From Agromyces larvae (GTDB lineage Bacteria > Actinomycetota > Actinomycetes > Actinomycetales > Microbacteriaceae), in the NCBI RefSeq assembly GCF_022811705.1, contig NZ_CP094528.1, positions 2,480,001 through 2,544,000 of the forward strand: a stretch of DNA of 64,000 bases, given 5' to 3'. The notes beneath the pieces were generated by a model. The model saw only the letters and a program-made list of their open reading frames with translations, searched no databases and had not been told where the DNA came from. Shown here in pieces: positions 6,101 through 52,880 of this stretch (the first letter of the stretch is position 1; each line of letters begins with the position of its first letter). The translations under genes and the position numbers were made by a program.

Positions 6101-6323
6101 GCCGCACCGCCGCGCCCACCTCGCTGCCACCCGCCCCGCCCACGGCCCGCCGCACCGCCGCGCCCCGCCCCCCTCGCTGCCGCCCGCCCCTTCATTCCAG
6201 GCACGTTCTTCAGTCGACGGCAGCGTCGGCGCCACCGTGAATTGAACAACGTGCCTGGAACGGGAAACCGCGGGCGGGAGGGCGGGCGCGGCGGGCCCGG
6301 GGTGGGGCCGGCGGGCGGGCGGG
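6101..6323. terminator. composite intergenic palindrome between convergent genes
   Basis: The gap between two convergent genes has three parts. First is a C-rich arm with direct repeats (GCCGCACCGCCGCGCCC at 6101 and 6149; CCTCGCTGCC-type units at 6119 and 6172). Second is a core with a perfect 13-base outer inverted repeat (TTCCAGGCACGTT at 6195-6207 and its complement at 6248-6260) enclosing an inner hairpin CGACG-GCAG-CGTCG (6215-6228). Third is a G-rich arm (6261-6323). The same layout recurs at other gene ends in this window. A bidirectional terminator is the simplest reading, but this is inference. Confidence 0.55.
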
Positions 6324-7256
6324 CTAGCCCGCGGCGTCGAGCGCCGCGAGCACGCGCGCCACCGAGCCGCCGAGGTTCCACTCCGTGGCGAGCTGCTCGA
6401 GCCGCACCCGGGCGTCACCGGTCACGGGATGCAGCCGCGCGTCGAAGGGCGGCAGGGCCAGATCGCGCACGACGCGGACCACGGTGGGCGCGACATCCAG
6501 GTAGTCGGATGCGGCGGCGACCTTCGCACGCACGCCCGCCGCCATGCCGGGCGCCCCCGACGCCGCGGCGTCGCGGATCCCGTCGAGGCCGGCGAACCGC
6601 TGCAGGAGGCCTGCCGCGGTCTTCTCGCCCACGCCCGCCACGCCCGGCAGCCCGTCGGACGCATCGCCCCGCAGCACCGCGAAGTCGGCGTACTGCTCGG
6701 GCAGCACGCCGTACTTCTGCACGACGACGGCGTCGGTCACGACCTCGAGCCGGCTCATCCCGCGCGCGGTGTACACGACTCGCACCCCGTCGGCGTCGGA
6801 GACGAGCTGGAACAGGTCGCGATCACCGGTGACGACGTCGACGGGCAGGCCGGCACCGGTCGCCAGCGTGCCGATGACGTCGTCGGCCTCGTGCTCGGGC
6901 GCGCCGATCACGGTGATGCCGGCGAGCGCGAGTGTTTCGAGGATGAGCGGCACCTGCGCCTCGAGGGGGTCGGGCACCTCTTCGACGTCGGGCGCGGGGC
7001 CCGGCACGACCTGCGCGACGCGGTGCGCCTTGTAGCTCGGGATGAGCTCGACCCGCCAGGCGGGGCGCCAGTCGTCGTCCCAGCAGGCGACGAGGTGGGT
7101 CGCCTCGAAGTCGGCGACCAGCCGAGCGATCATGTCGAGCAGCCCCCGCACCGCGTTCACGGGCGTGCCGTCGGCCCGCCGGATCGAGTCGGGCACGCCG
7201 TAGAACGCGCGGAAGTACAGCGAAGCGGTGTCGAGCAGCATCAATCGGTCGGTCAC
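6324..7256 (-). CDS. 5'-3' exonuclease, PolI N-terminal-domain type
   Basis: Flap endonuclease/5'-3' exonuclease homolog (310 aa) without a polymerase domain. Metal-binding acidic motifs are present in order: LMLLDTASLYFRAFYG, ACWDDDWRPAWR, EADDVIGTLA and VTGDRDLFQLV. They are followed by the helix-3-turn-helix DGLPGVAGVGEKTAAGLL that grips DNA. The likely role is removal of RNA primers or flaps during replication and repair, beside the full-length PolI. The start is taken as GTG at 7256 (VTDRLMLLD); a longer frame upstream (to 7292) adds residues not typical of the family. It is followed on the same strand by nothing closer than the convergent ABC gene. Confidence 0.9.
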   Translation of the reverse strand: MTDRLMLLDTASLYFRAFYGVPDSIRRADGTPVNAVRGLLDMIARLVADFEATHLVACWDDDWRPAWRVELIPSYKAHRVAQVVPGPAPDVEEVPDPLEAQVPLILETLALAGITVIGAPEHEADDVIGTLATGAGLPVDVVTGDRDLFQLVSDADGVRVVYTARGMSRLEVVTDAVVVQKYGVLPEQYADFAVLRGDASDGLPGVAGVGEKTAAGLLQRFAGLDGIRDAAASGAPGMAAGVRAKVAAASDYLDVAPTVVRVVRDLALPPFDARLHPVTGDARVRLEQLATEWNLGGSVARVLAALDAAG

Positions 7257-7302
7257 GCGCCCGATCCTGTCATGCCCGGCCGACGGCGGCATCCGACGCG
7301 CC

Positions 7303-8130
7303 TCAGACCACGGTCGGCAGTCCGCGCTCCAGCCAGACGACCCGGTCGCGCACCGTGACGGATGCCTCGTCGAGCACCCGGCGGGCCGACTCCCCCGGCT
7401 CGCGGAAGTGGGTCCACTGGTCGAAGTGCACCGGCACCACCGCTCGCGGTTGCAGCGACCCGATCAGGTCGATCGCGCTCGACGCCGTCATCGTGTACCG
7501 GGCCGACCCGGTCACGGGGAACTGCACGCCGCCCAGATGCACGACCGCGACGTCGACGTCGAGCCGTGAGGCCGCATCGCGCAGGCCGTCGTGCAGCACA
7601 CTGTCGCCCGAGATCCACACGGCGGTCTCGGGGGCGTCGCCGACCGACAGCGCGAACCCGATCACGCTGCCGACGATCGGCCGCGCCCAGGCGGGCCCGT
7701 GCCGGGCGGGCGTCGCGGTGACGGTGAGGGAGTCGCGTGCGCCGCCGTCGTCGGAGGACTCGCCGTCGTTCGGCGGGATCACCGCGGTCTCCCACGCGTG
7801 CAGCCCGTGCGCGCGGCGCAACCCCTGCCGTCGCAGCCGCCGTGCGCCGGCTGCGGTCGTGATCACTTCCCCGGCCCCGGGCAGCAGGGCGCGCCCGGCC
7901 TCGTCCAGGTTGTCGGCGTGCTGGTCGTGGCTGAGCAGCACCACGTCGACGGGCGGCAGCTCGGTGGGCGGCATCGCCGGCCCCTCGGTCTTGCGCGACG
8001 AGGTGCCCCATCCGAACGAGTACGTTCGGCCCGGTGGATCGAAGGTGGGGTCGACCAGGATGCGCCAGCCGGCGAGTTCGATGAGCAGGGTCGGTCCGCC
8101 GATGCGGGTCAGGGTGGGCCTGCGCGCCAT
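7303..8130 (-). CDS. MBL-fold metal-dependent hydrolase
   Basis: Metallo-beta-lactamase-fold protein of 275 aa, of the UlaG-like subgroup. It shows LLIELAGWRILVDPTFDPPG at the N-terminus and the metal motif SHDQHADNLD (HxxHxDN instead of the textbook HxHxDH, a variant common in this subgroup). Later it has VWISGDSVLHDG and VPVHFDQWTHF, which supply further metal ligands. Length is normal. Substrate unknown. It lies 46 bases upstream of the exonuclease gene on the same strand and is divergent from the FUSC gene, with only 46 bases between their starts, so the promoters must overlap. Confidence 0.87.
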   Translation of the reverse strand: MARRPTLTRIGGPTLLIELAGWRILVDPTFDPPGRTYSFGWGTSSRKTEGPAMPPTELPPVDVVLLSHDQHADNLDEAGRALLPGAGEVITTAAGARRLRRQGLRRAHGLHAWETAVIPPNDGESSDDGGARDSLTVTATPARHGPAWARPIVGSVIGFALSVGDAPETAVWISGDSVLHDGLRDAASRLDVDVAVVHLGGVQFPVTGSARYTMTASSAIDLIGSLQPRAVVPVHFDQWTHFREPGESARRVLDEASVTVRDRVVWLERGLPTVV

Positions 8131-8176
8131 GGCCAGATGCTATGCCCCGCGGGGCGCGCTGACTAGCGTTGACCGC

Positions 8177-9217
8177 ATGGGATTCGCCGACACGCTGCGC
8201 GCGGCGAAGCGCCCGCCGATCATCCAGGTGGGCAAGGCTGCGGTCGCGACGATCGCGGCCTGGCTGATCGCCGGATGGATCGTGCCCGGTCAGCTGCCCG
8301 TGTTCGCGGCGATCGCCGCGCTGCTGGTGGTGCAGCCGAGCGTGAACCAGTCGTTCGGCAAGGCGATCGAACGTTCGATCGGCGTCATCATCGGCGTGCT
8401 GGTGGCCACCGCCATCTCGCTCGTCCTGGGGCAGTCGAGCTGGGTGGTGCTGCTGGCGATCGTGCTGGCGATGCTGCTGGCGTGGCTGCTGAAGATGACG
8501 CCGGGCACCGCGAACCAGGTCGCGATCAGCGCGATGCTCGTGCTCGCGCTCGGTGCGTCGTCGCCGCAGTACGCGCTCGACCGGGTGATCGAGACGCTCA
8601 TCGGCGCGGCGATCGGCATCGTCGTGAACGCGCTCGTCGTGCCGCCCGTGGCGATCGCGCCGGCCCGCCGCGATCTCGCCCTGCTCGGCGGCGAACTCGC
8701 GGCGTCGCTCGATCGGCTCGCGGTCGCACTCGAGTCGATGCAGTCGCCCGCGGCCCGCGAGGAGCTCATGCTGCAGGCACGCCTGATGCGGCCCATGCGC
8801 GACGCCGCCGACGCTTCGATCCGTGCGGGCGAGGAATCCCTGACCTTCAATCCGCGCCGCTCGGCGCACCGCGAGGAGCTCGCCCACCTGCGCGCGCTGC
8901 TCGACCGGCTCGGGCCGATCGTGACGCAGGTGATCGGGATGACCCGGGCGTTCTTCGACCACTACGACGACGAGATCTCGGACGAGTCGACGGTGCCGGC
9001 GATCGTCGAGCAACTGCGTCGGGCGGCCCACGACGTGCGCCTCGCCGTGCACCTGGCCGACGTGGTGCCCGACCCGCCGACGTCCGCCATTCCGGCGCTC
9101 ACCTCCACGCTCGTGGTCAGCCCGCCGCAGTCGAACCACTGGGTGCTGATCGGCTCGCTCGTCGAGGATCTCCGGCGCATCCACGACGAACTCCTCGAGG
9201 ATCAGCCGGGCGACTGA
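8177..9217 (+). CDS. FUSC-family membrane protein
   Basis: Membrane protein of 346 aa. The first 155 residues hold about six hydrophobic segments (for example AAVATIAAWLIAGWIV, LPVFAAIAALLVVQPSVNQSFG, SIGVIIGVLVATAISLVL). The pattern LVVQPS-x-NQSFGKAIERSIGVIIG is the conserved signature of the FUSC/aromatic-acid-exporter family. A cytosolic helical C-terminal half of about 190 residues follows. Family members are linked to export of aromatic acids, but no substrate is supported here. The start is ATG 8177, just after the promoter gap shared with the MBL-fold gene. Confidence 0.83.
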   Translation: MGFADTLRAAKRPPIIQVGKAAVATIAAWLIAGWIVPGQLPVFAAIAALLVVQPSVNQSFGKAIERSIGVIIGVLVATAISLVLGQSSWVVLLAIVLAMLLAWLLKMTPGTANQVAISAMLVLALGASSPQYALDRVIETLIGAAIGIVVNALVVPPVAIAPARRDLALLGGELAASLDRLAVALESMQSPAAREELMLQARLMRPMRDAADASIRAGEESLTFNPRRSAHREELAHLRALLDRLGPIVTQVIGMTRAFFDHYDDEISDESTVPAIVEQLRRAAHDVRLAVHLADVVPDPPTSAIPALTSTLVVSPPQSNHWVLIGSLVEDLRRIHDELLEDQPGD

Positions 9218-9253
9218 GCACGCCCCGCCCGGCGGCAGCACCCCCCGGGGCCG

Positions 9254-9478
9254 CTACCCGAGCAGCTCGCGCACCGCGAGCCCCCACTCGAAGCCGCACT
9301 CGCGGCAGTCGAAGATGGGGGCGTCGTCGACGCCGGCGAAGCCGGGCACGGCCTCGACCTCGAGGTCGAGGGGGCCGTAGAGGATGACCCGCACGCCGGT
9401 CGAGCCGCAGCGCGGGCACGGGTCGTCGTGCACGGCGGTGCCGCCGGGAACGACGTTCTGCTGCATCTGCTCGGTCAT
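9254..9478 (-). CDS. small zinc-ribbon protein
   Basis: Protein of 74 aa with two CxxC knuckles, DPCPRCGSTG and FDCRECGFEWG, spaced as in zinc ribbons. Between them is a short hydrophobic/acidic segment (VILYGPLDLEVEAVPGFAG). No catalytic motif is visible; a structural or nucleic-acid/protein-binding role is plausible but unproven. ATG 9478 is chosen; a second in-frame ATG three codons on (MQQNVV) is possible. It is divergent from the YbdK-type ligase gene. Confidence 0.7.
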   Translation of the reverse strand: MTEQMQQNVVPGGTAVHDDPCPRCGSTGVRVILYGPLDLEVEAVPGFAGVDDAPIFDCRECGFEWGLAVRELLG

Positions 9479-9641
9479 GGCGCCAACGGTACGCCGGGCC
9501 TCCGACATCCCCTCGACGTGCGGCGCGCGTCGAGGCATCCGCCCGTGTCGCCGTATGTCGCACCGACCGGGACGATCCGGCACAACCGGTTGACATCCCC
9601 CGCGAAGCCCCGCAGCCTCGAAGGGAGCGAGGGGAGGCGCC

Positions 9642-10757
9642 ATGGCGACGACGTTCGGCATCGAGGAGGAGTTCATCTTCCTCGACCCGATCACCCTGCG
9701 GCCGGCCGACGTGGCCGAGCAGGCGTTCGCGCAGCTGACCTCCGAGCCGGCCTGGGCTCCGTTCACGCATCGCGAGTTCCTCGCGTCGCAGGTCGAGCAC
9801 GCGTCGCGCGTGTTCACCGACCTGGCCGACGCCGAGTCGGCGCTGAACGCGTTCCGCCGGCGCATCGCCGACGAGGCGACCCGTCTCGGCGTGCTCGTCG
9901 CGAGCATCGGCACCACCCCGGATGCGAACGCGTTCCCCGTGGTCGCGCATGTCGAGCGCTACGAGCGCATCGTGCGCGACATGGCGGGCCTGATCGGCGA
10001 CCACCAGTTCAGCGGGCAGCACGTGCACATCGGCGTGCCCGACCGTGAGGCGGGGGTGGTCGCGCTGAACGCGGTGCGACCGTGGCTGCCGCTTCTGACC
10101 GCGATGGCCGGCAACTCGCCGTTCTTCCGCGGGTACGACACGGGGTACGAGAGCTGGCGCACCATCCAGTTGCGCCGTTGGCCGACGGCCGGCTCTCCGC
10201 CGCGGTTCCGCAATGCGGCCGACTACGACCGGCGCATCCGGGCGCTGATCGGCATGGCCGGCATCACCGACCTGCACCTCGTGATGTGGAACGTGCGCCT
10301 CAGCGAGCAGCTGCCGACCGTCGAGTTCCGCATGGCCGACGCGCAGCTCACCGCGGAGGACGCGATCCTCATCGCCGCCGTGTGCCGCGGGCTCGTCGAG
10401 TACGCGCTGGACACGGCGGGCGGCCCGCCTCGCGAGGCCGACATCCCGATGGAGCTGCTGAGCGCCGCCGTCATGCACGCGGCGCACACCGGACTGCGCG
10501 GCGTGCTGTACGACCCTGTGACCCGCGGCCCGTCCGAGGCGCGGGTGGTGCTCGACCGGCTGCTCGAGCGCATCGGCCCCTATCTGGATCGGTCGGGCGA
10601 TGCGCCTCGGGTGGCGGATCTCGTCGCACGGCTGCTGCAGAAGGGAACCGGCGCGATCCGCCAGCGCGCGGCGTTCCGGCGCGCCGGCATCGAAGGGTTG
10701 GAGCGACTGTACTCGACGACGATCTGCGACGACCCCGATCGCCGCCGGGCCGCATGA
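9642..10757 (+). CDS. YbdK-type carboxylate-amine ligase (GCS2 family)
   Basis: ATP-dependent ligase of the glutamate-cysteine-ligase type 2 family, 371 aa, which is the usual length. Hallmarks are the N-terminal FGIEEEFIFLDP (metal-binding glutamates), the central SGQHVHIGVPDREAGV and PWLPLLTAMAGNSPFFRG, and the late VEFRMADAQLT. YbdK proteins have weak glutamate-cysteine ligase activity in vitro, and their true substrates are mostly unknown. The ATG follows GGGAGGCGCC. A TTGACA hexamer lies about 50 bases upstream (near 9590). Its stop overlaps the next start (ATGA), so it is the first gene of a three-gene operon. Confidence 0.88.
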   Translation: MATTFGIEEEFIFLDPITLRPADVAEQAFAQLTSEPAWAPFTHREFLASQVEHASRVFTDLADAESALNAFRRRIADEATRLGVLVASIGTTPDANAFPVVAHVERYERIVRDMAGLIGDHQFSGQHVHIGVPDREAGVVALNAVRPWLPLLTAMAGNSPFFRGYDTGYESWRTIQLRRWPTAGSPPRFRNAADYDRRIRALIGMAGITDLHLVMWNVRLSEQLPTVEFRMADAQLTAEDAILIAAVCRGLVEYALDTAGGPPREADIPMELLSAAVMHAAHTGLRGVLYDPVTRGPSEARVVLDRLLERIGPYLDRSGDAPRVADLVARLLQKGTGAIRQRAAFRRAGIEGLERLYSTTICDDPDRRRAA

Positions 10758-34424: not shown

Positions 34425-34630
34425 CTCGCGCCCCACGCAGCCCCGCTCGCACCCATGCGCACGCCGCTCGCGCCCCACGCAGCCCCGCGCTGCGCCACTT
34501 CGGCGGCCTCCGCGCCAGACGAACTGGCGCAGGCGGCGTCGAAGTGGCGCAGCCGCAGGACGCGAGCGGAGCGGACGGCAGGGGGAGCGAGCGCGGTAGG
34601 CGCGACGGGCGGAGCGGGCGGCAGGCCGGG
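34425..34630. terminator. composite intergenic palindrome 3' of the Cthe_2159-like gene
   Basis: A C-rich arm carries a 22-base exact direct repeat (34425-34446 and 34467-34488). The core has perfect 14-base outer arms, GCTGCGCCACTTCG (34489-34502) and its complement (34540-34553), around an inner GCGCCAG-N5-CTGGCGC hairpin (34512-34530). A purine-rich arm follows to about 34630. The core is related to the one at 37559-37623. It may terminate the upstream operon; function is inferred. Confidence 0.55.
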
Positions 34631-34686: not shown

Positions 34687-36558
34687 ATGCCCATGACCGC
34701 TGCCCCGCTCGTCGAGCTCGACGAGGTGCGCATCCGCCACGACGGCGCCGAGCGCGCGACGCCCGACGGCGTCACACTCGCGATCCGTCCGGGCGAGGTG
34801 GTGCTGGTGCTCGGGCCGTCGGGCTGCGGCAAGTCCACCCTCGCGCTCGCGCTCGACGGGCTCATCCCCCACGCCGTGCCCGCCGACCTCGAGGGGCGCG
34901 TGCTCGTGGCCGGCCTGGACACCCGCGACCACCACGTCGGCGAGCTGAGCGAACACGTCGCGATGGTGTTCCAGGATCCGGACGCGCAGGTCGTCACCGG
35001 CACCGTGCTCGACGAGGTCGCGTTCGGCCCCGAGAACCTGCGACTGCCGGTCGACGACGTGCTCGCCCGCGCCGAACGCGCGCTGAAGCTCGTCGGCCTC
35101 TGGGAGCGCCGCACCGAGAACCCCGACCGGCTCTCGGGCGGAGGCCGCCAGCGGCTCGCCATCGCGTGCGCGCTCGCGATGGCGTCGCCCGTGCTCGTGC
35201 TCGACGAACCGACCGCGAACCTCGACCCGGCCGGCATCGACGAGGTGTACGCGGTACTGCGCGAGCTCGCCAACGAGCGCGATCACGCGATCGTGCTCGT
35301 CGAACACAACCTCGACGCGGCGGTCGACGTGGTCGACCGGGTCGTCGTGCTCGATGCGGCCGGGCGGCTCGCGATGGACGGGCCGGTGCGCGACGTCCTG
35401 CGCGGGCGCACCGACGAGCTGCTCGCCCTCGGCGTGTGGCTGCCGGTCTCGACGCTGGCCGCGCTGCGGTTGCGCGAGGCGGGCGTCGTGCTCGACCCCC
35501 TGCCGCTCACCCCCGCCGAACTCGCGGCCGCACTGGATGCGCACGCGGTGCTGCCCGCGCCGCTCGTCGCCGCCGGACGCGACGCGACGACACGTCTCGA
35601 GACCGACGCGACCCAGCGCACCTCACCGGGCCTCGAGACGCGTCCGACTCCGTCGGGCGCCCCTCGACCGACGGCCGGGCAGGCGGCGATCACGGCGCGC
35701 GGCCTGTCGGTGCGTCGCGGGGGCAAGCGCGGGCCGATCGTCGTGCACGACGTCGACCTCGACGTGGCATCCGGTGAGTTCCTGGCGATCGTCGGCACCA
35801 ACGGCGCCGGCAAGACCAGCCTGCTGCAGGCGATCGCGGGCGTGACGCCCGCGCCCGAGGGCGCCGTCGACGTGCTCGGCCTCGACCCGCAGCGCGCCGA
35901 CGCGCGCGAGCGCAGCCGGCGCATCGGGTTCGTGTTCCAGAATCCCGAGCACCAGTTCGTCGCGACGAGCGTCGCCGGAGAGCTCGACCTCGGCCTGAAG
36001 CTGCAGGGCCTCGACGAGGCCGCCCGCGACGCCGAGATCACCCGCATCCTCGACCGGTTCGGGCTCGGAGACCTGCGCGACCGGCACCCCTTCCTCCTGT
36101 CGGGCGGGCAGAAGCGGCGGCTGTCGGTCGGCACCGCGCTCGTCGCCGGCGCGCCCGTGCTCGCGCTCGACGAACCGACCTTCGGCCAGGACCGCGAACG
36201 CGCCGCCGAACTCCTCGACATGCTCGCGACGCTGAACGCCCAGGGCACGACGATCCTCGTCGTCACGCACGACCTGCAGCTCGTCGCCGACTACGCGAGC
36301 CGCGTCGCGGTGATGGCCGAGGGCCGGGTGCTCGGCGTCGGCCCGACCGCCGAGGTGCTCGCCGGGCCGCTCATCGAACAGGCCGGCCTGCGACATCCAC
36401 CGCTCGCGCGCGCCACCCGCGGCCTCGAGCACCACCCCGGCTGGCGCCAGGTGACCCGGATGTCGCAACTGCCCGCAGCCGTCGCCCCCGCGTCCACGAC
36501 GACCGACGACGGGCACGCGCCGGGCGCGGTGCCGACCGAGGCCCGAGGCATCCGATGA
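34687..36558 (+). CDS. ECF transporter fused ATPase EcfAA'
   Basis: Two ABC ATPase domains in one 623-aa chain. Domain 1 has Walker A GPSGCGKST (about 39-47), signature LSGGGRQRLAIA and Walker B VLVLDEPTANLD. Domain 2 has Walker A GTNGAGKTS (about 370), signature LSGGQKRRLSVG and Walker B VLALDEPTFGQD. The first Q-loop region reads MVFQDPDAQVVTGTVLDEVAFGPENL, typical of energy-coupling-factor ATPases. It powers uptake of a vitamin or metal with EcfT downstream. No S component is in the window. The first of two ATGs (34687, 34693) is used; no strong ribosome binding site. The next gene overlaps by ATGA. Confidence 0.9.
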   Translation: MPMTAAPLVELDEVRIRHDGAERATPDGVTLAIRPGEVVLVLGPSGCGKSTLALALDGLIPHAVPADLEGRVLVAGLDTRDHHVGELSEHVAMVFQDPDAQVVTGTVLDEVAFGPENLRLPVDDVLARAERALKLVGLWERRTENPDRLSGGGRQRLAIACALAMASPVLVLDEPTANLDPAGIDEVYAVLRELANERDHAIVLVEHNLDAAVDVVDRVVVLDAAGRLAMDGPVRDVLRGRTDELLALGVWLPVSTLAALRLREAGVVLDPLPLTPAELAAALDAHAVLPAPLVAAGRDATTRLETDATQRTSPGLETRPTPSGAPRPTAGQAAITARGLSVRRGGKRGPIVVHDVDLDVASGEFLAIVGTNGAGKTSLLQAIAGVTPAPEGAVDVLGLDPQRADARERSRRIGFVFQNPEHQFVATSVAGELDLGLKLQGLDEAARDAEITRILDRFGLGDLRDRHPFLLSGGQKRRLSVGTALVAGAPVLALDEPTFGQDRERAAELLDMLATLNAQGTTILVVTHDLQLVADYASRVAVMAEGRVLGVGPTAEVLAGPLIEQAGLRHPPLARATRGLEHHPGWRQVTRMSQLPAAVAPASTTTDDGHAPGAVPTEARGIR

Positions 36559-37421
36559 CCGCGACCGCCGCCGACTCGCCCGAGGCATCCGCTCAGCCGA
36601 CCGCGACGCACGTCGACCCGTTCGCCGAAGCGCCCAAGCCGCGCGGACGCTTCCTCTACGCCCTCAACCCCCTCGCGAAGATCGCCGGCCCGCTGCCCGT
36701 GATGTTCGCGCTCGTCTTCACGCGTGGCGCCCTGATCCCCACGGTCATCATCGTCGTCTCGCTCGTGCTGCTGTTCGTCGGCGCGAAGCTGCGCGGGCGC
36801 GTGATCGTCGCGCTGCTCATCGGCCTGCCGCTGCTCATCGGCGCGTTCGGCGTGAGCTTCGGCATCTGGGTCGACCCGGCGTTCGTCGACCAGGACTCGG
36901 ATGCGGCATCCGTCACCCTGATCGCGATCGGCGACTGGCGCTTCACGCTCGCCGCCTACCTGATCGGCCTCGCCACCGCGCTGCGCATCGCCGCCCTGCT
37001 CGTGCTGACCCTGCTCGCGGGGCTCACCACCGGCGGGCCCGAACTCGTGCGCGCGCTCGTGCAGAACCTGCGGGTGCCGTACCGCATCGGCTACACGGCG
37101 CTCGCCGCGCTGCGGTTCGTGCCCCGGTTCGGGCACGAGCTCGAGGTGATCCGGGCCGCGCACCGGGTGCGCGGCACCGACCACGGGCACGGCCCGATCG
37201 CGTGGATCCGTCGCACGCTCGGCCTCGCGATCCCGCTGCTGGCGGGCGCCATCCGGCACGCCGAACGCGTCGCCCTCGCGATGGACGCCCGCGCCTTCGG
37301 CGCGCACCGCACCCGCACCGAGCGCACGATCAGCCGCTGGCGGGTGCGCGACACGGTGTTCGTGCTGCTGTTCTGGGCGGGCGCGATCGCCCTGTACTGG
37401 TGGGTGCTCGCCGCCGGCTGA
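36555..37421 (+). CDS. ECF transporter T component (EcfT)
   Basis: Membrane scaffold of 288 aa. A Pro-rich N-terminus is followed by YALNPLAKIAGPLPVMF and five or six helices. The two cytosolic coupling motifs are visible: ALRFVPRFGHELEVIRAAHRVRG (with the A-x-R-x-RG type ending) and AERVALAMDARAFGAHRTR. These helices dock onto the EcfA domains. Together with the fused ATPase it forms an energising module that must pair with an S protein encoded elsewhere, as in group II ECF systems. Confidence 0.9.
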   Translation: MTATAADSPEASAQPTATHVDPFAEAPKPRGRFLYALNPLAKIAGPLPVMFALVFTRGALIPTVIIVVSLVLLFVGAKLRGRVIVALLIGLPLLIGAFGVSFGIWVDPAFVDQDSDAASVTLIAIGDWRFTLAAYLIGLATALRIAALLVLTLLAGLTTGGPELVRALVQNLRVPYRIGYTALAALRFVPRFGHELEVIRAAHRVRGTDHGHGPIAWIRRTLGLAIPLLAGAIRHAERVALAMDARAFGAHRTRTERTISRWRVRDTVFVLLFWAGAIALYWWVLAAG

Positions 37422-37453
37422 CGCATGCGTCCCGCGACGTGCCGCGCGCACGC

Positions 37454-37721
37454 GCCCTCGCCGTGCCGCACGCGGCCGCCCTCGCCGTGCCGCGCGCAGC
37501 CGCCCTCGCCGTGCCGCGCGCAGCCGCCCTCGCCGTGCCGCGCGCACCTTCCCTCGCGGCTGCGCCAAGTCGGTCGCCTCTGCGCCAGTCCGACTGGCGC
37601 GGACAACGCCGAACTGGCGCAGCGGACGGCGGGGAGCGACGGCAGCGAGCGGCCGGCAGCGCGCAAGCGGCGCCAGCGAGCGACGCCGGCAGCGCGCAAG
37701 CGACAGCGAGCGGCCGGCGCG
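37454..37721. terminator. composite intergenic palindrome with 24-bp tandem repeats
   Basis: This 300-base gap between convergent genes holds four 24-base units beginning GCCCTCGCCGTGCCGC (37454, 37478, 37502, 37526). A nested core follows: outer arms GCTGCGCCAAGTCGG (37559-37573) and CCGAACTGGCGCAGC (37609-37623), 13 of 15 matched, and an inner 19-base palindrome GCGCCAGTC-C-GACTGGCGC (37582-37600). A purine-rich arm with repeated GCAGCGCGCAAGCG runs to 37720. It lies 3' of both genes, so a bidirectional terminator is likely. No gene is seen here. Confidence 0.55.
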
Positions 37722-38708
37722 TTACCCCGCGGCCGCGGTGTCGACGATCTCGACGTAGAAGACGAGCGTGTGACCGCCGAGGCCGTTCGACGACTCCTCG
37801 GTGCCGTAGCCGAGCTCCGGCGGGATGGTCACGATCAGCTTCGTGCCGACCGGCTGGCCGACGAGCGCGGCGCCGAAGCCCTGGATGACGTCGGCGGTGC
37901 CGAAGGTCGCCGGCTCGCCGCGGTCGAAGCTCGAGTCGAACTGCTCCTTCGTGTCCCAGTTGATGCCGACGTAGTGCACGGTGACGCTGTCGCCGTTCTG
38001 CACCACGGTGCCGTCGCCCTCGTCCAGCACTTTCAGGGCGAGCTCGGCCGACGGGGCGGCGTCGGGGATGACGATCGTCGGGGCGTCGTCGCCGTTCTGC
38101 GTGACCTCGGGCACGTTCTCGGTCCACTCGGCGGGCGTCGGCAGGGGCTCGGGCTCGGGCTCGACGTACTCGCCGACGATGTCGACGACGATCACGACGG
38201 TGTCGTCGGCGCCGACGCCGAGGGTCTCGTTGCCGGTCTCGCCGTAGAGCGATGCGGGCGGCGCGACGGTGACGGTGCGGCTGCCGTACGGCTGGCAGTC
38301 GATGGCCGAGCGGAACGAGTCCAGCAGCGTCCCGTCGCCGACGGCGAGGGTGGCCTGCTGCGACAGGATCTGCTCGCCGGTGGTGGCGTTGATCATCGTG
38401 ATGACCACGTCGGCGCTGGTGCCGCTCGCGGCCTCGTCGCCGTCGCCTTCGGTGAGGACCGTCGTCTGCAGGTCGGTGGCCTTCAGCGGAGTCGTGAACG
38501 TCGCGGTCGGGTTGGCCTCGCCGAACGCGCCGTCGACGGTGATCGCCTCGCTGTCGGGCCCCGGGACGGCCTCGAAGCAGGGCAGCGCGCCGTCGGCGGT
38601 CGGAGTGGGCGTCGGGGTCGACTCGGCGCCGCCGGCGCAGCCGGCGAGCAGGAGCGCTGCCGACGCGGCGAGCGCGACGGGCGCAGCGAGGCGCAGGGCA
38701 CGATTCAT
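37722..38708 (-). CDS. FKBP-type peptidyl-prolyl isomerase lipoprotein
   Basis: Extracellular lipoprotein of 328 aa (lipobox LLAGC, Cys24) with two FKBP-like domains. The first (about 45-175) is degenerate. The second (about 215-325) is well conserved: VTVHYVGINWDTKEQFDSSFDRGEPATF, VIQGFGAALVGQPVGTKLIVTIPPELGYG and the final LVFYVEIVD strand. It should help fold exported proteins at the membrane surface. A Glu/Pro linker (YVEPEPEPLPTP) joins the domains. ATG 38708 with GGGAGG about 8 bases upstream. Confidence 0.9.
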   Translation of the reverse strand: MNRALRLAAPVALAASAALLLAGCAGGAESTPTPTPTADGALPCFEAVPGPDSEAITVDGAFGEANPTATFTTPLKATDLQTTVLTEGDGDEAASGTSADVVITMINATTGEQILSQQATLAVGDGTLLDSFRSAIDCQPYGSRTVTVAPPASLYGETGNETLGVGADDTVVIVVDIVGEYVEPEPEPLPTPAEWTENVPEVTQNGDDAPTIVIPDAAPSAELALKVLDEGDGTVVQNGDSVTVHYVGINWDTKEQFDSSFDRGEPATFGTADVIQGFGAALVGQPVGTKLIVTIPPELGYGTEESSNGLGGHTLVFYVEIVDTAAAG

Positions 38709-46267: not shown

Positions 46268-46308
46268 CGCGACTGAGGTCCCAGTCGCGCAGATCGACCT
46301 CAGTCGCG
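46268..46308. terminator. 13-bp perfect palindrome at convergent gene ends
   Basis: CGCGACTGAGGTC (46268-46280) and GACCTCAGTCGCG (46296-46308) enclose a 15-base loop that itself repeats part of the arm (CCAGTCGCG). It spans the stop of the small membrane protein gene and follows mrpG by 30 bases. A bidirectional terminator is probable. The word TCGCGCAGATCGACCT (46285-46300) recurs inverted at 52824-52839. Confidence 0.65.
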
Positions 46309-46680
46309 GTCGCGCATGCGATCGCTTCGGGCGAGCACGGTCGCCGCGATGAGCGTGGCGAGGCACAGCACGGCGGGGCCGACGGTCTTCGCGAGGTCGC
46401 CCTGCACGGCACCGATGAACGTGTCGATGCCCTGCACGATGGTCATCGCGACCGCGCCGACGAGCAGCGCCGAGTCGACGCGGAAGATCGGCGCGATCAG
46501 CACGACGAGCACGAGCGCGATGCTGCGCGCGGCCGCATAGAGCGCGTTCGCGTTGTCAGCGGCGACACCGCCGTCGACGACGGCGATGACGGCGAAGCTC
46601 ACGCTCACGATCGCGCTCACCGCCGTGATGGCGTAGCAGATCCAGAAGGCGGCGCCCCGGGCGCGTGCCGGTTCGGTCAT
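46300..46680 (-). CDS. small four-helix membrane protein
   Basis: Protein of 126 aa with four hydrophobic segments: AFWICYAITAVSAIVSVSFAVIAVV, LYAAARSIALVLVVLIAPIF, SALLVGAVAMTIVQGIDTFIGAV and VGPAVLCLATLIAATVLA. It ends in SDRMRDRD. No known motif; it resembles many unannotated actinobacterial membrane proteins. Convergent with the Mrp operon, its stop lying inside the shared palindrome. Not recognisable as an Mrp component. Confidence 0.75.
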   Translation of the reverse strand: MTEPARARGAAFWICYAITAVSAIVSVSFAVIAVVDGGVAADNANALYAAARSIALVLVVLIAPIFRVDSALLVGAVAMTIVQGIDTFIGAVQGDLAKTVGPAVLCLATLIAATVLARSDRMRDRD

Positions 46681-47571: not shown

Positions 47572-47612
47572 GGCTGCTCCCTGCTCCTCGTCGTCGGGGA
47601 GATCGGCGCGAT

Positions 47613-47634: not shown

Positions 47635-47670
47635 ATAACCGGGCGCACCGACCGACCCCCGCACCCCTCC

Positions 47671-47806
47671 CCACCCCGAACGCACTCCAGCCCCACCCCG
47701 AACGCAATTCAGCTCCACCCCGAACGCAATTCAGGTACGGAGGGCGTGTCGCGCCCCGGAAGTCGGCGTGTCGGAGCGACACGCCGACTCCCGACCTGAA
47801 TTGCGT
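47671..47806. terminator. composite intergenic element 3' of the RNA helicase gene
   Basis: Three 22-base direct repeats (CCACCCCGAACGCA..., at 47671, 47693 and 47715) lead into a nested core. The outer arms are ACGCAATTCAGGT (47724-47736) and its exact complement (47794-47806). The inner hairpin is AGTCGGCGTGTCG-GAG-CGACACGCCGACT (47761-47789), 13 perfect pairs with a 3-base loop. A G-rich arm (47811-47842) follows. The hairpin probably terminates the helicase mRNA, read leftward. Confidence 0.6.
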
Positions 47807-47847
47807 ACCTCGTGGGTGGGTGAGCGGGTGGCGGGTGGGTGGACTCG

Positions 47848-50385
47848 TCAGGCGGTGGGGGATGCCTCGACGGGCTCCGTGGCATCCGCCTCGCCGTCGG
47901 TGTCGAGGAGGTCCACGACGACGAGCTCGTCCTCGAACGACTCGTCGGACGCGAGCTCCTCGTCGACCTCAGCCTCATCGGCCTCAGCCTCGAGCTCCTC
48001 CGCGACATCCGCCTCGTAGGAGTCCGCTTCGAAGCCCTCCTCCGACTCGATCGCCGCGATCTCCACCGGGCCGAGGTCGTCGAGCAGCGCGTCGCCGAGG
48101 CGCACGTCCTCGAAGTCGACCTCGATCTCGGCTCGGTCGAGCAGGTCGTTCATACGGCGCTGACGGTTGCGCGGGATGAGCGTGACGACCCGGCCCATGC
48201 GGCCGGCGCGACCGGTGCGGCCGGCGCGGTGCAGGTAGGTCTTGTACTCGTCGGGCGCGTCGGCCTGGATCACCAGGTCGATGTCGTCGACATGGATGCC
48301 TCGGGCGGCGACGTCGGTCGCGACCAGCACGTCGACCCGCCCGCTGGTGAGCTGGTGCAGGTTGCGCGTGCGGCGCGACTGGTTGAGGTCGCCGTGCAGG
48401 GCGACGGCGCGGATGCCGGCCTCCTCGAGGTGCTCGGTCAGATCCTCGGCGAACGCACGGGTGCGCGAGAAGACGAGGGTCTTGCCGTCGCGGTCGGCGA
48501 GCGCCGCGACGATGTCACGCTTGTCACGGTTCTCGATGACGAACACGCGGTGGTCGATCGTGCCCGACGACTGGTCTTCGCCGGCCACCTCGTGCACCGC
48601 CGGGTCGACGAGGAACTCGTCGACGAGCGTCGCCACACCGGTGTCGAGCGTCGCCGAGAACAGCAGCTTCTGCCCGCCGGGCTTGGTGAGGCGGAGGATC
48701 CGCTGCACCGGCTCGAGGAACCCGAGGTCGCACATGTGGTCGGCCTCGTCGAGCACGGTGATCTCGATCGCCGAGAGGTCGAGGTGACCCTGGCGCTCGA
48801 GGTCCTCGATGCGTCCGGGCGTGCCGATCACGATGTCGACGCCGCGACGCAGCGCGCCGACCTGACGGGCCTGCGGCACACCGCCGTAGACCTGCGTCGT
48901 GAACAGGCCCACGGCCTGCGCGATCGGCTGCACGGTGCGGTCGATCTGCAGCGCGAGCTCGCGCGTCGGCGCGAGGATGAGCGCGCGGGGCGCGCGGCCC
49001 ATCTCGCGCTTGCGACGGCCGTCGGGGCCGTTCGGGAGGTCACGCTGCTTCGCCGCCCACAGTTGCATGAGCCGCTCGACGGTCGGCGCGCCGAACGCGA
49101 TCGTCTTGCCCGACCCGGTGCGCCCGCGACCGAGCACGTCGCGACCCTCGAGCACGACCGGGATGGTCGCGGCCTGGATCGGGAACGGGTGCTCGGCGCC
49201 GAGGTCGCCCAGGGCGCGGACGATGTTCTGGCCGAGGCCGAGGTCGCCGAAGCTCACGCCGTCGACGGCTTCGGCCTGGATGGCGTCGGCCGCGAGCCGC
49301 TCGAGCACGACATCGTCTTCGGGGGTGAAGGCGGGCCGCTCGTCACGGGCCGGGTAGAACGAGGAGGGGCGGCGCTCGCTGTCGCGGAAGCCGGGGCGCT
49401 CGACGTCGCGACGCGGGGCGCGGTCGGCGCGATCGGTGCGGTCGCGGTCGAACTCGCGGCGCGCGGGCCGCTCGCCGCGGTCGTCGAAGCGGCGCGGGGC
49501 ACGGGCGCGGTCGTCGCGGTCGAAGTCGCGGCGAGCCGGACGGTCGGTGCGGTCGAAGTCACGACGCGGGGCACGGTCGTCACGGTCGAAGTCCCGACGC
49601 GGCGCACGGTCGTCACGGTCGAACCGGCGCGGCGCACCACCGTCGCGAGGGGCGCGATCGCGGTCGAACTCACGACGCGGCGCACGATCGGTGCGGTCGA
49701 AGTCCCGACGCGGCGCACGGTCGTCGCGGTCGAACCGGCGCGGCGCACCACCGTCGCGAGGGGCGCGGTCGCGGTCGAAGTCACGACGCGGCGCACGATC
49801 GGTGCGGTCGAAGTCACGACGCGGCGCACGGTCGTCACGGTCGAACCGGCGCGGCGCACCACCGTCGCGAGGGGCGCGATCGCGGTCGAAGTCCCGGCGC
49901 GGCGCACCACCGTCGCGAGGGGTGCGGTCGCGATCGAACTCGCGGCGCGCAGGACGCTCACCGCGGTCGTCGAACCGGCGCGGAGCCCGGTCGAACTCGC
50001 GGCGCGGAGCGCGGTCGTCGCGGTCGAACCTGCGCGGCGCACCGCCGTCGCGCGGCGCACGGTCGCGGTCGAACTCGCGGCGCGGAGCGCGGTCGTCACG
50101 GTCGTACCGGCGACCGGCGTCGCGGCCGTCGCGTCCGGCGTCGCGGCCATCACGTCCGCCCTGCTCGGGGCGTGCGTCGGCGCGGTGCGGCGTGCGGCCG
50201 CTGGCGACGCGCTCGTCGCGGCTCCAGCGGGCCTTCTTCGGGGCATCCTCGTCGGGGCGGTAGCCGCGGTGACCGGGGCTGCGCGATCCGGACTTGGGGG
50301 CACCCGACTTCGAGGCGCCGCGCGCGTACGAGGGGTCGAAGTTGCGAGCGGGTCGTCCGCCGGCGGGCTTCTTGTTCTTGGGCAT
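47848..50385 (-). CDS. DEAD-box RNA helicase with long repetitive N-terminus
   Basis: Protein of 845 aa. Residues about 80-320 are an Arg/Asp/Phe-rich array of units such as [14 protein letters not shown] and [13 protein letters not shown]. The helicase core follows: Q-motif region [18 protein letters not shown] (near 378), Walker [11 protein letters not shown] (near 422), [14 protein letters not shown] (near 547), SAT (near 575) and the C-terminal [13 protein letters not shown] and [11 protein letters not shown]. An acidic tail ends the chain. It should unwind structured RNA (ribosome assembly, mRNA turnover, cold adaptation) and may phase-separate through its charged tail (inference). The start is ATG 50385 with GGAAGCTCC upstream; the longer upstream frame is unlikely. 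Confidence 0.92.
49430..50110 (-). repeat. degenerate tandem repeats in helicase coding sequence
   Basis: About 680 bases of near-repeats encode the RD-rich array of the DEAD-box protein. The stretch GGCGCACCACCGTCGCGAGG (+ strand) occurs near 49631, 49742, 49854 and 49901, with a diverged copy near 50036. Between them alternate GTCACG/GTCGCGGTCGAA units. Such arrays recombine easily and change length. Confidence 0.85.
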
Positions 50386-50402
50386 GGTGGAGCTTCCTGG
50401 GT

Positions 50403-50416
50403 TGTACTCGAGTACA
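50403..50416. promoter_or_regulatory. 14-bp perfect palindrome upstream of the RNA helicase
   Basis: TGTACTCGAGTACA is a perfect palindrome 18 bases before the helicase ATG, within the probable 5' untranslated region or promoter. Its AT-containing sequence is unusual here. It could be an operator or an RNA hairpin; I do not recognise the cognate regulator. Confidence 0.4.
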
Positions 50417-50663
50417 TGGCGAACGTGCCACGCGCAGGCGCAGCACGATCGAGAACCCGGAACTGTCGTAGACCGGGGCCGTTCACATACGGTGACTATC
50501 CGGAGGCCTAAACGCCTCGGAACCGGCCCTGCAGACTCACAAACCCATCCGCGCACGTGGCGCGGTGTCCAGACCGACCCCACCACGATACCGGTCCCGC
50601 CTGGGAATCCGCCGCCACCGAACGTGAGATACCATCACTGCACCCCCGACCGGAAGCCCGCCC

Positions 50664-51677
50664 GTGACCCAGACCCGAACCCGCGGCACCGGCGGTCTCG
50701 GCGGCCGGCATCGCAGCCGGTCCCTGCTGATCGCCGCCGCCGTCGTTGCCGCGCTCGCGACGACTTCGGTGCTGAGCGCGTTCCACACGCGGCTCGAGCC
50801 GATCGATCCGCAGGGTCCGGATGCCGCGAGCGAGGTCGTCGGTCCCGAGATCGTCGGCATCCGCACGTTCACCCCGCCGGCGGGGCTGCGCGTCGCGGCC
50901 GACCTCGAGTACGGCACCCGCGAGGACGGCACGCTGCTCACCCTGGACGTGTGTCTGCCGCCGGCGGTCGGTCTCGGCCTCGATCTCCCGGCGGTCGTCT
51001 CGGTGCACGGCGGCAGTTGGGCGCGCGGCGACAAGGCCAACGCCGACTGGCGCAACGTGTGCCTGTGGCTGGCGAGCGAGGGATTCGTCGCGGCATCCGT
51101 GAACTACCGGCTCGTCCCCGACGCCGTCTTCCCCGCCCAGCTCGAGGATGTGCAGCTCGCCGTCGAGTGGCTGCGCGACCCCGAGCAGGTCGAACGGTTC
51201 GACCTCGATCCGGCCCGCATCGGCGTGTTCGGGGGCTCGGCGGGCGGCAACCTGGCCGCCCTCGTCGGCGCCGACGGCGAGGGGTCGCTCGACGAGGGGT
51301 CGCGGGTCGCGGCCGTGGTCGACCTGTCGGGTCCGGTGGTGCTCGACGGCATCGCCGAGGGCGAGGAGTGGTTGCGCGGCATCGTGGGCGCCTACCTCGC
51401 GTGCGACCCCGACACGCTCGACACGACCGGATGCCCCGCCGCGGCGCCGGCATCGCCGGGCACGCTGGCCGATGCATCCGACCCGCCCGTGTTCATCGGG
51501 CACGCCGAACAGGAGATCATCCCGCTCGTCCAGTCGCTCGGCTACGCCGAGTCGCTCCGGGCGGCGGGTGTGCCGGTTGAGCTGGCCGTCGTGCCGGGCG
51601 GCGAGCACTCGATCGGCATCCTCGACGCCGGGCTGCGCGAACGCGTGGCCGCGTTCCTGCACGCGCAGCTGGGCTGA
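50664..51677 (+). CDS. secreted alpha/beta hydrolase (esterase type)
   Basis: Protein of 337 aa. An N-terminal signal or membrane helix (SLLIAAAVVAALATTSVLSAF) precedes an alpha/beta hydrolase of the BD-FAE/carboxylesterase type. It has VVSVHGGSWARGDK (HGG oxyanion hole), nucleophile elbow GVFGGSAGGNLA, NYRLVP, and a likely acid/histidine pair in IGHAEQEIIPLV and GGEHSIGI. LDVCLPP in the strand before the HGG is typical of this group. It probably hydrolyses short esters outside the membrane. GTG 50664 with GGAAG upstream. Confidence 0.85.
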   Translation: MTQTRTRGTGGLGGRHRSRSLLIAAAVVAALATTSVLSAFHTRLEPIDPQGPDAASEVVGPEIVGIRTFTPPAGLRVAADLEYGTREDGTLLTLDVCLPPAVGLGLDLPAVVSVHGGSWARGDKANADWRNVCLWLASEGFVAASVNYRLVPDAVFPAQLEDVQLAVEWLRDPEQVERFDLDPARIGVFGGSAGGNLAALVGADGEGSLDEGSRVAAVVDLSGPVVLDGIAEGEEWLRGIVGAYLACDPDTLDTTGCPAAAPASPGTLADASDPPVFIGHAEQEIIPLVQSLGYAESLRAAGVPVELAVVPGGEHSIGILDAGLRERVAAFLHAQLG

Positions 51678-51740
51678 TCTCGGCCGGCGCGGCGTCGCAA
51701 CCCCTCGACGCCCGCGACGGCGACCTGCCATCATCGCGGC

Positions 51741-52769
51741 ATGCCCCACCCCTCAGGCCCGGGCCGTGACGGCCACGACTCGCCCGCTCGATTCAGTCGC
51801 GACGAGTGGTGGCTCGTCCTGCGCCGCACCTGGCACGAGGCCCGCATCAACCAGTGGGCCGACATCGCCGCGGCCCTCACCTATTACGCGGTGCTCGCGC
51901 TGTTCCCGGCGCTGCTCGCCGCGCTCGCCCTCATCGGCGGCTTCGGGTCGGCCGAGCGCTTCGGCGAGACCGCGCTCGACATCGTCGGCGACCTGTGGGG
52001 CGAGGATGCAGCGAGCGCGCTCCATGAACCGCTCGCCCAACTGCTCGACGCGTCGCACCAGTGGTCGGCGCTCATCGTCGGCGTGGCCGGCGCGCTCTGG
52101 GCGATCTCGGGATACCTCGGGGTGTTCGGTCGCGGCATGAACCGCATCCTCGACGTCGAGGAGGGGCGCCCGTTCTGGCGGTCGCGGCCGGCGATGCTGC
52201 TCGTCGCGGCCGTGCTGCTCGTCCTGGCGGCCGCGGTCGCGGTGCTGCTCATCGTGAGCGGCCCGGTGGCGGGGGCGGTGGCCGAGGCGTTCGGCCTCGA
52301 CGAGGGTGTGGCGTTCTGGTGGGACCTCGCGAAGCTGCCGGTCGCCGCGGCCCTCGTCGCGCTCGCGATCGCGCTGCTCTACTGGGCGACGCCGAACGTG
52401 AAGCGCCGCCACCTGCGCTGGATGAGCATCGGCGCGGCGTCGGCGCTGCTGGTGTGGGTCGTGACGACGGGGCTGTTCGGCGTCTACGTGCTCGGGTTCC
52501 GCACCTACGAGCGCAACTACGGGGTGCTCGGCGGTGCGGTGGCGCTGCTGCTGTGGGTGTGGCTGTCGAACCTCGCCCTGGTGCTCGGCGCGGTGCTCGA
52601 CACCGAGGTCGAGCGGGTTCGGCAGCTCCGCGCGGGCATCGCGGCCGAGGTCGACCTGAAGTTGCCGCTGCGCGACGACCGGATGGTGCGCAAGAATCAC
52701 GAGCAGCGGGCCGCTGACATCCGCGATGCGCTCGCACTGCGCGCCGAAGCATCCGTGCACCATCGCTGA
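51741..52769 (+). CDS. YihY/BrkB-family membrane protein
   Basis: Membrane protein of 342 aa with about six helices: ADIAAALTYYAVLALFPALLAALALIGGFG, WSALIVGVAGALWAISGYLG (with the conserved GYLGVFGRGMNRI), AMLLVAAVLLVLAAAVAVLL and VALLLWVWLSNLALVLGAVLDTEVERV (in part). The family was once called ribonuclease BN in error and is now seen as a possible transporter or lipid-export protein; function is unknown. ATG 51741. It ends before a composite palindrome. Confidence 0.9.
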   Translation: MPHPSGPGRDGHDSPARFSRDEWWLVLRRTWHEARINQWADIAAALTYYAVLALFPALLAALALIGGFGSAERFGETALDIVGDLWGEDAASALHEPLAQLLDASHQWSALIVGVAGALWAISGYLGVFGRGMNRILDVEEGRPFWRSRPAMLLVAAVLLVLAAAVAVLLIVSGPVAGAVAEAFGLDEGVAFWWDLAKLPVAAALVALAIALLYWATPNVKRRHLRWMSIGAASALLVWVVTTGLFGVYVLGFRTYERNYGVLGGAVALLLWVWLSNLALVLGAVLDTEVERVRQLRAGIAAEVDLKLPLRDDRMVRKNHEQRAADIRDALALRAEASVHHR

Positions 52770-52822
52770 CCCCGCCCCGCCGCCGCGCCCGCCCCGCCGC
52801 GCCCCCGCCCCTCACCCGATGC

Positions 52823-52880
52823 AAGGTCGATCTGCGCGAGTACGCCCCGCCCGGGGCGGCCTCGATCGCACGAATCGACC
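52823..52880. terminator. composite intergenic palindrome between convergent genes
   Basis: After a C-rich arm (52770-52815) come outer arms GGTCGAT (52825-52831) and ATCGACC (52874-52880), with partial pairing extended by CTGCGCGAG/CTCGATCGCA. The inner hairpin is CGCCCC-GCCC-GGGGCG (52843-52858). A G-richer arm follows. The left arm contains AGGTCGATCTGCGCGA, the inverted copy of a word at 46285-46300. It lies 3' of the YihY and IclR genes; probable bidirectional terminator. Confidence 0.5.

Follow-up and report, generated by a model that had tools for sequence, protein, structure and literature searches.

Palindrome families that bracket nuclease-like genes in Agromyces: a candidate repeat-nuclease partnership

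Bacterial genomes commonly contain palindromic repeats, and for many families of these a partner is not known. To our knowledge, the RAYT proteins are the sole enzyme class tied to repeats of this kind. RAYT genes are described as having, in every case, an inverted pair of REPs at their flanks (PMC2817692), and REPIN populations as persisting for millions of years (PMC8049555). Related arrangements outlined in excerpted form include the TIRtrons, which use RAYT relatives, and CGTC-tagged REPs, which are given as lacking a partner gene (both PMC3733652), as well as Br-REP1 and Br-REP2 of Bradyrhizobium, 3′-UTR palindromic repeats first found between convergent genes, where transcripts were reported (excerpt of PMC5082802). 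Among the open-access literature matches listed, no title or abstract opening pairs palindromes with AbiEi-, DUF559- or Vsr-type genes.

Here we analyze a 64,000-nt stretch of DNA (the window) from Agromyces larvae, which we take to be a soil bacterium. The palindromes of six gaps in the window belong to four families, each of which brackets one gene elsewhere in the same chromosome, and all four genes encode members of one protein group. That the families bracket their own nuclease-like genes points to a repeat-nuclease partnership not described before.

The six elements of the window and their surroundings

Coordinates refer to the window unless marked as chromosome places, and gene calls throughout are those of a codon-usage script of this analysis, not an annotation. 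The elements and their arms are as follows.

6097..6190: C-rich arm to the left of the family C element, with 3.7 tandem copies of a 24-bp unit
6195..6260: family C palindrome, CAGGCACGTT...AACGTGCCTG, in the gap separating the convergent genes 5281-6096 (+) and 6324-7241 (-)
34425..34496: C-rich arm to the left of the family A element at 34490, with 3.4 tandem copies of a 21-bp unit
34490..34552: family A palindrome, 63 bp, CTGCGCCA-N12-CYGCGCCA-N7-TGGCGCAG-N12-TGGCGCAG
37431..37557: C-rich arm to the left of the family A element at 37560, with 5.3 tandem copies of a 24-bp unit
37560..37622: family A palindrome, in the gap separating the convergent genes 36555-37421 (+) and 37722-38708 (-)
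37635..37718: G-rich arm to the right of the family A element at 37560, with 2.7 tandem copies of a 33-bp unit
46268..46308: relative of family D, either partial or rearranged, CGCGACTGAGGTC...GACCTCAGTCGCG
47669..47734: C-rich arm with 3.0 copies of a 22-bp unit, which includes a portion of the outer box of family B
47722..47809: family B palindrome, with ACGCAATTCAGG as its outer and GGCGTGTCG as its inner box, plus the complements of both
52821..52884: family D palindrome, AAGGTCGATCTGCGCG..., in the gap separating the convergent genes 51741-52769 (+) and 52943-53695 (-)

A sequence-only reading of the window had proposed long outer inverted repeats in these gaps, five of them with an inner hairpin; a nested palindrome is present at all six. 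Folding of the gaps against shuffles, a check suggested at the time, gave RNA folding energies below those of dinucleotide shuffles on both strands of every gap. In 11 of 12 strand tests none of 200 shuffles folded as well (z -3.4 to -8.6), the remaining test being the minus strand at 46268, where 3 of 200 did (z -2.6). The z values for the two strands were -6.5 and -7.0 for the 6195 element and -4.3 and -2.6 for the 46268 element, the final 9 bases of which run into the end of called gene 46300-46680. The hairpins are real and exceed what chance would give. They are also part of a wider pattern: over 464 kb, made up of the window and 20 further stretches at even spacing (gaps of 120-700 bp; arm score of at least 14), a strong inverted repeat was found in 23 of 111 gaps, vs. 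0 after one composition shuffle per gap.

The placement of the six gaps agreed with the earlier description, four lying between convergent genes (6101, 37454, 46268, and 52823) and two between tandem genes (34425 and 47671, the element of the latter being 3′ of the DEAD-box helicase gene 47848-50385 (-)). Across the survey, strong palindromes occurred in 10/19 convergent, 13/47 tandem and 0/45 divergent gaps, and with the window removed the counts were 20/57 convergent or tandem gaps vs. 0/36 divergent. This distribution (23/66 vs. 0/45 at 120-700 bp) fits a reading in which the palindromes are host-selected bidirectional terminators or RNA 3′-end stabilizers for convergent genes, which require a stop in common, with C-rich tracts that could load Rho and an incidental association with the bracketed genes.

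The C-rich left and G-rich right flanks that had also been proposed are clear at 6195 (0.67 C and 0.22 G in the left 60 nt), 34490, 37560, and 47722, weak at 46268 and one-sided at 52821, where the right flank has 0.42 C and 0.42 G. Genome-wide, C exceeds G directly 3′ of stop codons, and a C-rich flank is thus partly a general property of gene ends. That property alone accounts for the flanks only in part, as the excess of C over G in the first 60 nt is larger in palindrome-bearing gaps (0.13-0.18) than in gaps without a palindrome (0.03-0.07).

Families A to D and their spread

The sequence-only reading further held that the sequences differ at each locus and have no simple shared ancestry. 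We found otherwise: the 34490 and 37560 elements are copies of one family, the 46268 and 52821 elements have an exact 16-bp match, TCGCGCAGATCGACCT, in common (maximum of 11 in 500 shuffles), and families A, B, and C recur elsewhere in the genome. The six gaps sort into family A (34490 and 37560), family B (47722), family C (6195), and family D (52821, with 46268 as a partial member). Family A is a 63-bp palindrome with four TGCGCCA boxes at a fixed spacing of 20-15-20 bp. Its covariance model, R1, scores the 34490 and 37560 elements at 80.2 and 69.4 bits, both being among its 14 training rows, and the family B model, R2, scores the 47722 element, itself a training row, at 99.1 bits. Families A and B are dispersed, with match counts per genome that are lower bounds; family B, for which 14 copies were aligned, was found in at least 22 of 60 genomes of the genus. 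Few own-genome copies of families C and D were detected. Family C recurs at chromosome places 2573180, 3197676, and 563738, and family D was detected again only at its partner gene and, partially, at 46268, with two places at 75-80% in the near relative G023. Within what was searched, the elements are clade-restricted.

Several properties of family A bear on termination. Its copies are enriched between convergent genes (44/93 intergenic copies vs. 38/199 own gaps that are 63 bp or longer; p 1e-6), and on each strand they are preceded by C-rich and followed by G-rich sequence, both of which speak for terminators. Against these stand 10 of 48 own copies, from 6 gaps, called in divergent gaps, and the pairing itself: among 14 family A sequences 81.1% of cells were paired vs. 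82.2% in shuffles, with 3 two-sided pair changes vs. 5.7 in shuffles, and hence no compensatory pairing. T-runs of at least 4 within 25 nt were found on 0 of 194 strands of 97 family A copies, and T-runs at the six elements of the window do not exceed 2. Moreover, terminators have no need for identical boxes at unlinked loci.

Other candidates were considered. An Rfam RNA and a covarying structured RNA were both set aside on null results, the former as no Rfam covariance model matched the window at its gathering score. A DNA-uptake-like single box was also rejected: CTGCGCCA occurs 54 times in 464 kb, within the range of 8-mers of the same composition (median 31, 95th percentile 159), and 21 of these 54 occurrences fall within elements. 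No target-site duplication, such as a MITE of a DDE insertion sequence would make, was seen at the one identical copy pair examined, nor a GT(A/G)G head at the element edge in the family A and B alignments or the family A flanks. The sequence GTGG is present within the family A arm.

Comparison with G023 revealed three sites at which an element is absent. The orthologous gap of the 34490 element measures 80 bp vs. 280 and lacks it, and those of the 37560 and 47722 elements are without a family A and a family B element, respectively. The gene pair around 37560 is adjacent at six named Agromyces loci, where the gaps are 21-189 bp and have no R1 match. Among 12 sampled G023 loci, drawn from the strongest matches only, nine have both flanking genes in common with an own copy, two share the outer neighbors across a two-copy block and one shares one flank. 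In 13 orthologous family A pairs, conservation was 384/416 for boxes, 261/312 for spacers and 61/91 for the loop, figures that are biased by the choice of copies on box score. The greater conservation of the boxes may reflect selection by the host on the element as such, and that boxes are kept better than loops at orthologous sites is a further point for terminators. G023 has no family A partner gene, of which a 120-bp remnant is left; box decay after partner loss was not seen in the 13 pairs, the match to consensus being 29.6 of 32 in G023 and 29.3 in the own copies. Genes that one genome has between two copies and the other lacks were noted at own 3856897/3857924 (vs. L194) and at L201 (vs. 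own 2804037), and a few non-partner genes are likewise bracketed by family A copies.

The bracketed genes and their products

The partner protein consists of an AbiEi-like winged-helix DNA-binding module and a nuclease-like domain. In a structure model, the predicted fold of the second domain is nearest to the homing endonuclease I-Bth0305I and to Vsr, and we consider it a predicted PD-(D/E)XK/Vsr-like domain of the homing-endonuclease type. A PDB sequence search returned no convincing relative (best E 0.038). The nuclease-type residues D240, E251, D253, K257, and E278 are invariant in 36/36 aligned proteins. A RAYT/Y1 transposase was ruled out as the partner, PF01797 being found in 0/60 genomes of the genus and in 5/14 control genomes. 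At the loci read, no intron or intein surrounds the partner genes.

The 6195 element aligns to both flanks of the family C partner, L261, over 61 and 58 columns (scores 47 and 46), and the 52821 element to both flanks of the family D partner, L262 (scores 36 and 31), the background being a maximum of 28 in 3 shuffles over all flanks. The 46268 element did not rise above shuffles against any partner flank. The family B partner gene has a family B palindrome on both sides, and family A copies lie on both sides of the gene at eight of the nine closest A-partner loci. Across Agromyces homologue loci the flanks are alike in 38 of 43 testable cases vs. 4/104 ordinary genes, and 5/43 have flanks without similarity. 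Different homologues carry different palindromes: these are in common in 40/55 homologue pairs of at least 60% identity vs. 28/562 pairs below 50%, counts that pool syntenic and non-syntenic pairs. In a class-wide set of DUF559-type genes (30 loci, one too short), flank similarity exceeded the 99th percentile of cross-locus pairs at 17/29 loci and at 12/23 outside the genus; for the Agromyces and family sets this control was inflated by syntenic loci (99th percentiles of 582 and 431, with 0 above) and was replaced by shuffles. In another set of 29 loci, 11 were without a called gene, and in five of six misses the called gene was short (192-209 aa). For a DUF559-type gene in a genome of another family (G478), 0 further copies of the flanking palindrome were found in 400 kb sampled (8.9% of that genome).

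Family A also tracks its partner, occurring in 14/14 genomes with a close partner vs. 10/46 others (G001, G007, G013, G023, G024, G027, G032, G040, G045, and G049), and these ten speak against a strict rule. A copy is absent beside five of the 14 partner genes (L238, L240, L241, L243, and L244; best score 19-20 of 32) and lies on one side only of L242, and the genomes of these six still hold from 4 to at least 81 family A matches. One place in G187 adjoins a second homologue.

The pairing of palindrome and gene is well supported, and the terminator reading leaves this association with one gene family unexplained. Of the sequence-only proposal of a clade-specific bidirectional terminator or stabilizer, the 3′-end placement, the avoidance of divergent gaps and the clade restriction stand; the organization into repeat families with fixed-spacing boxes speaks against it, the bracketing of nuclease-like genes is not accounted for by it, and we regard host-selected termination as an unlikely primary explanation.

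Two further readings start from the gene. The palindromes could be operators of an autoregulating AbiEi-like repressor, with the dispersed copies forming a regulon or decoys and the nuclease-like domain inactive or secondary. AbiEi is a DNA-binding antitoxin family, and the match of the N-terminal module to it and the fixed box spacing fit this reading; a palindrome lies 3′ of the partner gene too, however, the dispersed copies are mostly at gene 3′ ends rather than upstream, and the invariance of the nuclease-type residues also argues against it, making it quite improbable. We find it similarly hard to credit that the gene is a passenger, inserted into or trapped between existing palindromes that spread by another route: there are other genes that one genome has between two copies and another lacks, but the palindromes differ between homologues, close homologues share them where distant ones rarely do, and family A follows its partner over 60 genomes.

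We therefore favor, with moderate confidence, a population of repeats that resembles REPIN-RAYT but relies on an unrelated protein of nuclease type. Taking REPINs and RAYT as a model, we infer that the partner protein most likely binds the conserved boxes of its own family and would nick or cut the palindromic DNA of that family, after which repair or strand transfer may occasionally copy the palindrome of ~63-90 bp into a new site. Insertions would be kept mainly at gene 3′ ends, where hairpins are presumably nearly harmless, and an inserted hairpin may later act as a bidirectional transcript end, such that termination or 3′-end protection may be a secondary effect.

Comparison with known repeat systems

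More tentatively, and with slightly less than even confidence, we suggest that solitary AbiEi-DUF559/Vsr-type genes of Actinomycetes represent a second class of palindrome-keeping enzymes with an evolutionary origin of its own, a non-HUH counterpart of the RAYTs with one palindrome family per lineage, that shapes gene 3′ ends across Microbacteriaceae and beyond. If the partnership is true, a cognate protein of unrelated fold would mean that REPIN-like populations have more than one origin, a function would be assigned to the large "unknown" gene family of DUF559/AbiEi-like type, and the families would provide natural protein-DNA pairs whose specificity changes jointly. It would also call for caution, as a strong 3′ hairpin in a high-GC genome may be a repeat and not an evolved terminator.

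The likenesses to described systems are each partial. With TIRtrons and CGTC REPs the elements share the enclosure of a gene by palindromic or terminal inverted repeats and the existence of palindrome families without a known dedicated transposase, although neither is linked to DUF559/AbiEi proteins in the excerpted text of PMC3733652. Like Br-REP1 and Br-REP2, they lie at gene 3′ ends and between convergent genes, whereas those repeats, as excerpted from PMC5082802, have no partner gene and a different consensus. The second domain resembles the Vsr and I-Bth0305I nucleases in its predicted fold, but is fused to an AbiEi-like module, tied to dispersed palindromes, and free of intron or intein context at the loci read. 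The AbiE type IV toxin-antitoxin systems, in which an AbiEii nucleotidyltransferase toxin is encoded next to the antitoxin, share the N-terminal module and lend their database names to some relatives, yet the partner has a nuclease-like domain, and its neighbors at eight A-partner loci are what we take to be prfA-like and cysE-like genes. The closest correspondence is with the REPIN-RAYT system, or REPtron, in the dispersed intergenic palindromes (many copies for A and B), the gene with the same palindrome on both sides, the one gene lineage per palindrome family and the long persistence; the elements here differ in being 63-90 bp with more than one box pair and no GT(A/G)G head beside the palindrome, and the partner in joining an AbiEi module to a Vsr/homing-endonuclease-like domain in place of a Y1/HUH transposase.

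Palindromes in the gaps of the window

The window covers bases 2480001-2544000 of the Agromyces larvae chromosome (4,005,264 bp; 72.7% G+C), whose nearest named relatives by an MrpA-type protein are Agromyces species. A sequence-only reading had described inverted repeats in six gaps (6101-6323, 34425-34630, 37454-37721, 46268-46308, 47671-47806, and 52823-52880). Nested palindromes proved to be present in all six, and on each strand their folds were more stable than those of dinucleotide-shuffled sequence; the weakest fold was the minus strand of 46268, which 3 of 200 shuffles equaled. Among 111 gaps of 120-700 bp from the window and 20 evenly spaced stretches (464 kb together), 23 held a strong inverted repeat, vs. 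none after one shuffle per gap; by orientation, these palindromes occupied 10 of the 19 convergent gaps, 13 of the 47 tandem ones and none of the 45 that were divergent. No Rfam family matched in the window.

Features of the window (window coordinates)
6195-6260, family C element
47722-47809, family B element, outer box ACGCAATTCAGG, inner box GGCGTGTCG
47669-47734, 37431-37557, 34425-34496, and 6097-6190, C-rich tandem arrays adjoining elements
6306-6396, tRNA-Ser call (ARAGORN), overlapping the end of a 5'-3' exonuclease gene; probably false, as no Rfam match falls there
49549-49907, tandem 111-bp repeats within the DEAD-box helicase gene 47848-50385
60402-61628, insertion-sequence-like transposase gene, which we take to be of IS256 type; inverted repeats occur around 61622 and 61675

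Element families

Family A contributes two of the six gap palindromes (34490 and 37560), as a 63-bp element laid out as CTGCGCCA-N12-CYGCGCCA-N7-TGGCGCAG-N12-TGGCGCAG. A pattern permitting 31-61 bp was found at 25 forward places in this genome, all of those listed being exactly 43 bp, vs. 3 places for the reversed pattern, and a covariance model identified the family in 24 of 60 Agromyces genomes. In the fetched stretches of this chromosome 48 copies were read (leaving out 3 offset duplicates), 20 of them in convergent, 16 in tandem and 10 in divergent settings (6 gaps), with 2 in called genes; eight relatives yielded another 49. One pair of identical copies matches over 70 bp, beyond which the two sequences are completely different. 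An array of four copies lies at chromosome positions 2588729-2589307.

Family B occurs in 22 of the 60 genomes, one of which (G005:C1:2445171-2445613) has three copies close together, ~177 bp apart. Family C has three other places on this chromosome apart from its partner gene. The 46268 and 52821 elements have 16 exact bases in common and are read as family D, with 46268 a partial or rearranged relative. The family B outer box is partly included in the unit of the array at 47669, as though one arm of the element had been amplified locally.

Partner genes and their homologs

When genes beside A copies were compared, a single gene, whose product combines an AbiEi-like DNA-binding module with a domain of predicted Vsr/I-Bth0305I-like fold, was A-flanked on both sides in 5 of 5 genomes, with 63-73% identity to the A. 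larvae protein vs. 80-93% for neighboring genes. Homologs of this partner are present in 55 of 60 genus genomes and 183 of 299 Microbacteriaceae genomes (profile, E<=1e-20). A lies on both sides of 8 of the 9 closest homologs; these eight sit between what we take to be prfA-like and cysE-like genes, one locus having an extra gene. Distant homologs carry other palindromes that are alike across the gene (CCTGAGGGC, GGAATCCCGTT, GTCGGAGGCAACG, TTTCTGGGGTGGAG, and others). On one common score, flank similarity exceeded all shuffles at 38 of 43 testable loci vs. 4 of 104 ordinary genes. Of the 18 testable loci in the wider family set, 12 passed likewise (10 of the 15 not from Agromyces), vs. 1 of 15 other genes at the same loci.

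This genome has four paralogs of this kind: one is bracketed by family A, a second (L261) has family C, the palindrome of gap 6101, on both sides, a third (L262) has family D on both sides with a weaker match, and the fourth (L263, chromosome positions 3018834-3019778) has its own palindrome family, GTGTTTCCGTTCGCGC, found in none of the six gaps. The partner of family B, located by a search for B copies ~1 kb apart, belongs to a type akin to the A partner, AbiEi_4+DUF559, with Pfam scores of 36.7 and 39 bits that exceed the cut-offs; it has B on both sides in this genome, and a shorter homolog in another genome (G006) is also B-flanked. The A-type and B-type partner profiles are homologous (99.1%, 235 columns).

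Presence, probable gain and dispersal of the elements

All 14 genomes whose partner reaches 47% identity, a cut chosen after inspection of the data, contain family A, vs. 10 of the other 46. The presence of A follows its partner, but not as a strict pairing: five of the 14 counted partner genes have no adjoining A copy and one has A on one side only, and the near Agromyces relative G023 has at least 51 A matches, yet its partner gene is reduced to a 120-bp remnant at the same place. The strongest G023 copies lie at sites common with A. larvae, at least one flanking gene being shared at 12 of 12 loci. G023 is without the element at 34425, 37454, and 47671, the three comparable sites of the six, and six named Agromyces loci where the 37454 gene pair is adjacent also lack it; because of these absences, at least the 37454 copy was probably gained in this lineage.

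In one genome of another genus an A-like palindrome occurs at 7 places (5 sites) within 400 kb, one beside a second partner homolog and two in called genes. In G478, from another family, palindromes flank a DUF559-type gene with no further copies within 400 kb, so dispersal is not established for every member.

At two pairs of sites (A. larvae 3856897/3857924 vs. locus L194, and locus L201 vs. A. larvae 2804037) one genome has a gene enclosed by a pair of A copies, whereas its counterpart has a single A copy flanked by the same outer genes, as recombination between copies would give. Among the best-scoring matches listed, A and B copies concentrate in one half of the contig, with 9 of 41 (p 4e-4) and 7 of 40 (p 4e-5), respectively, within 0-2.0 Mb. 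Several stretches of the A/B-richer half are also lower in coding density.

Where the elements lie, and how well their boxes are conserved (384 of 416 box positions kept at orthologous sites vs. 61 of 91 loop positions), would fit a role at transcript ends; as the origin of the elements it is less likely, because family A copies and the six window elements lack T-runs and no covariation was found in the family A stem. What the partner protein suggests is that it may cut or nick palindromic DNA, and the palindromes would then be copied by repair. The link between palindrome families and proteins of this class appears to be new, judged from an incomplete search of the open-access literature. With its repeat population and flanked, vertically inherited gene, the arrangement probably works like REPIN-RAYT systems; however, their defining Y1 transposase (PF01797) was found in none of 60 genus genomes, which places it outside that family, as an analog rather than a member.
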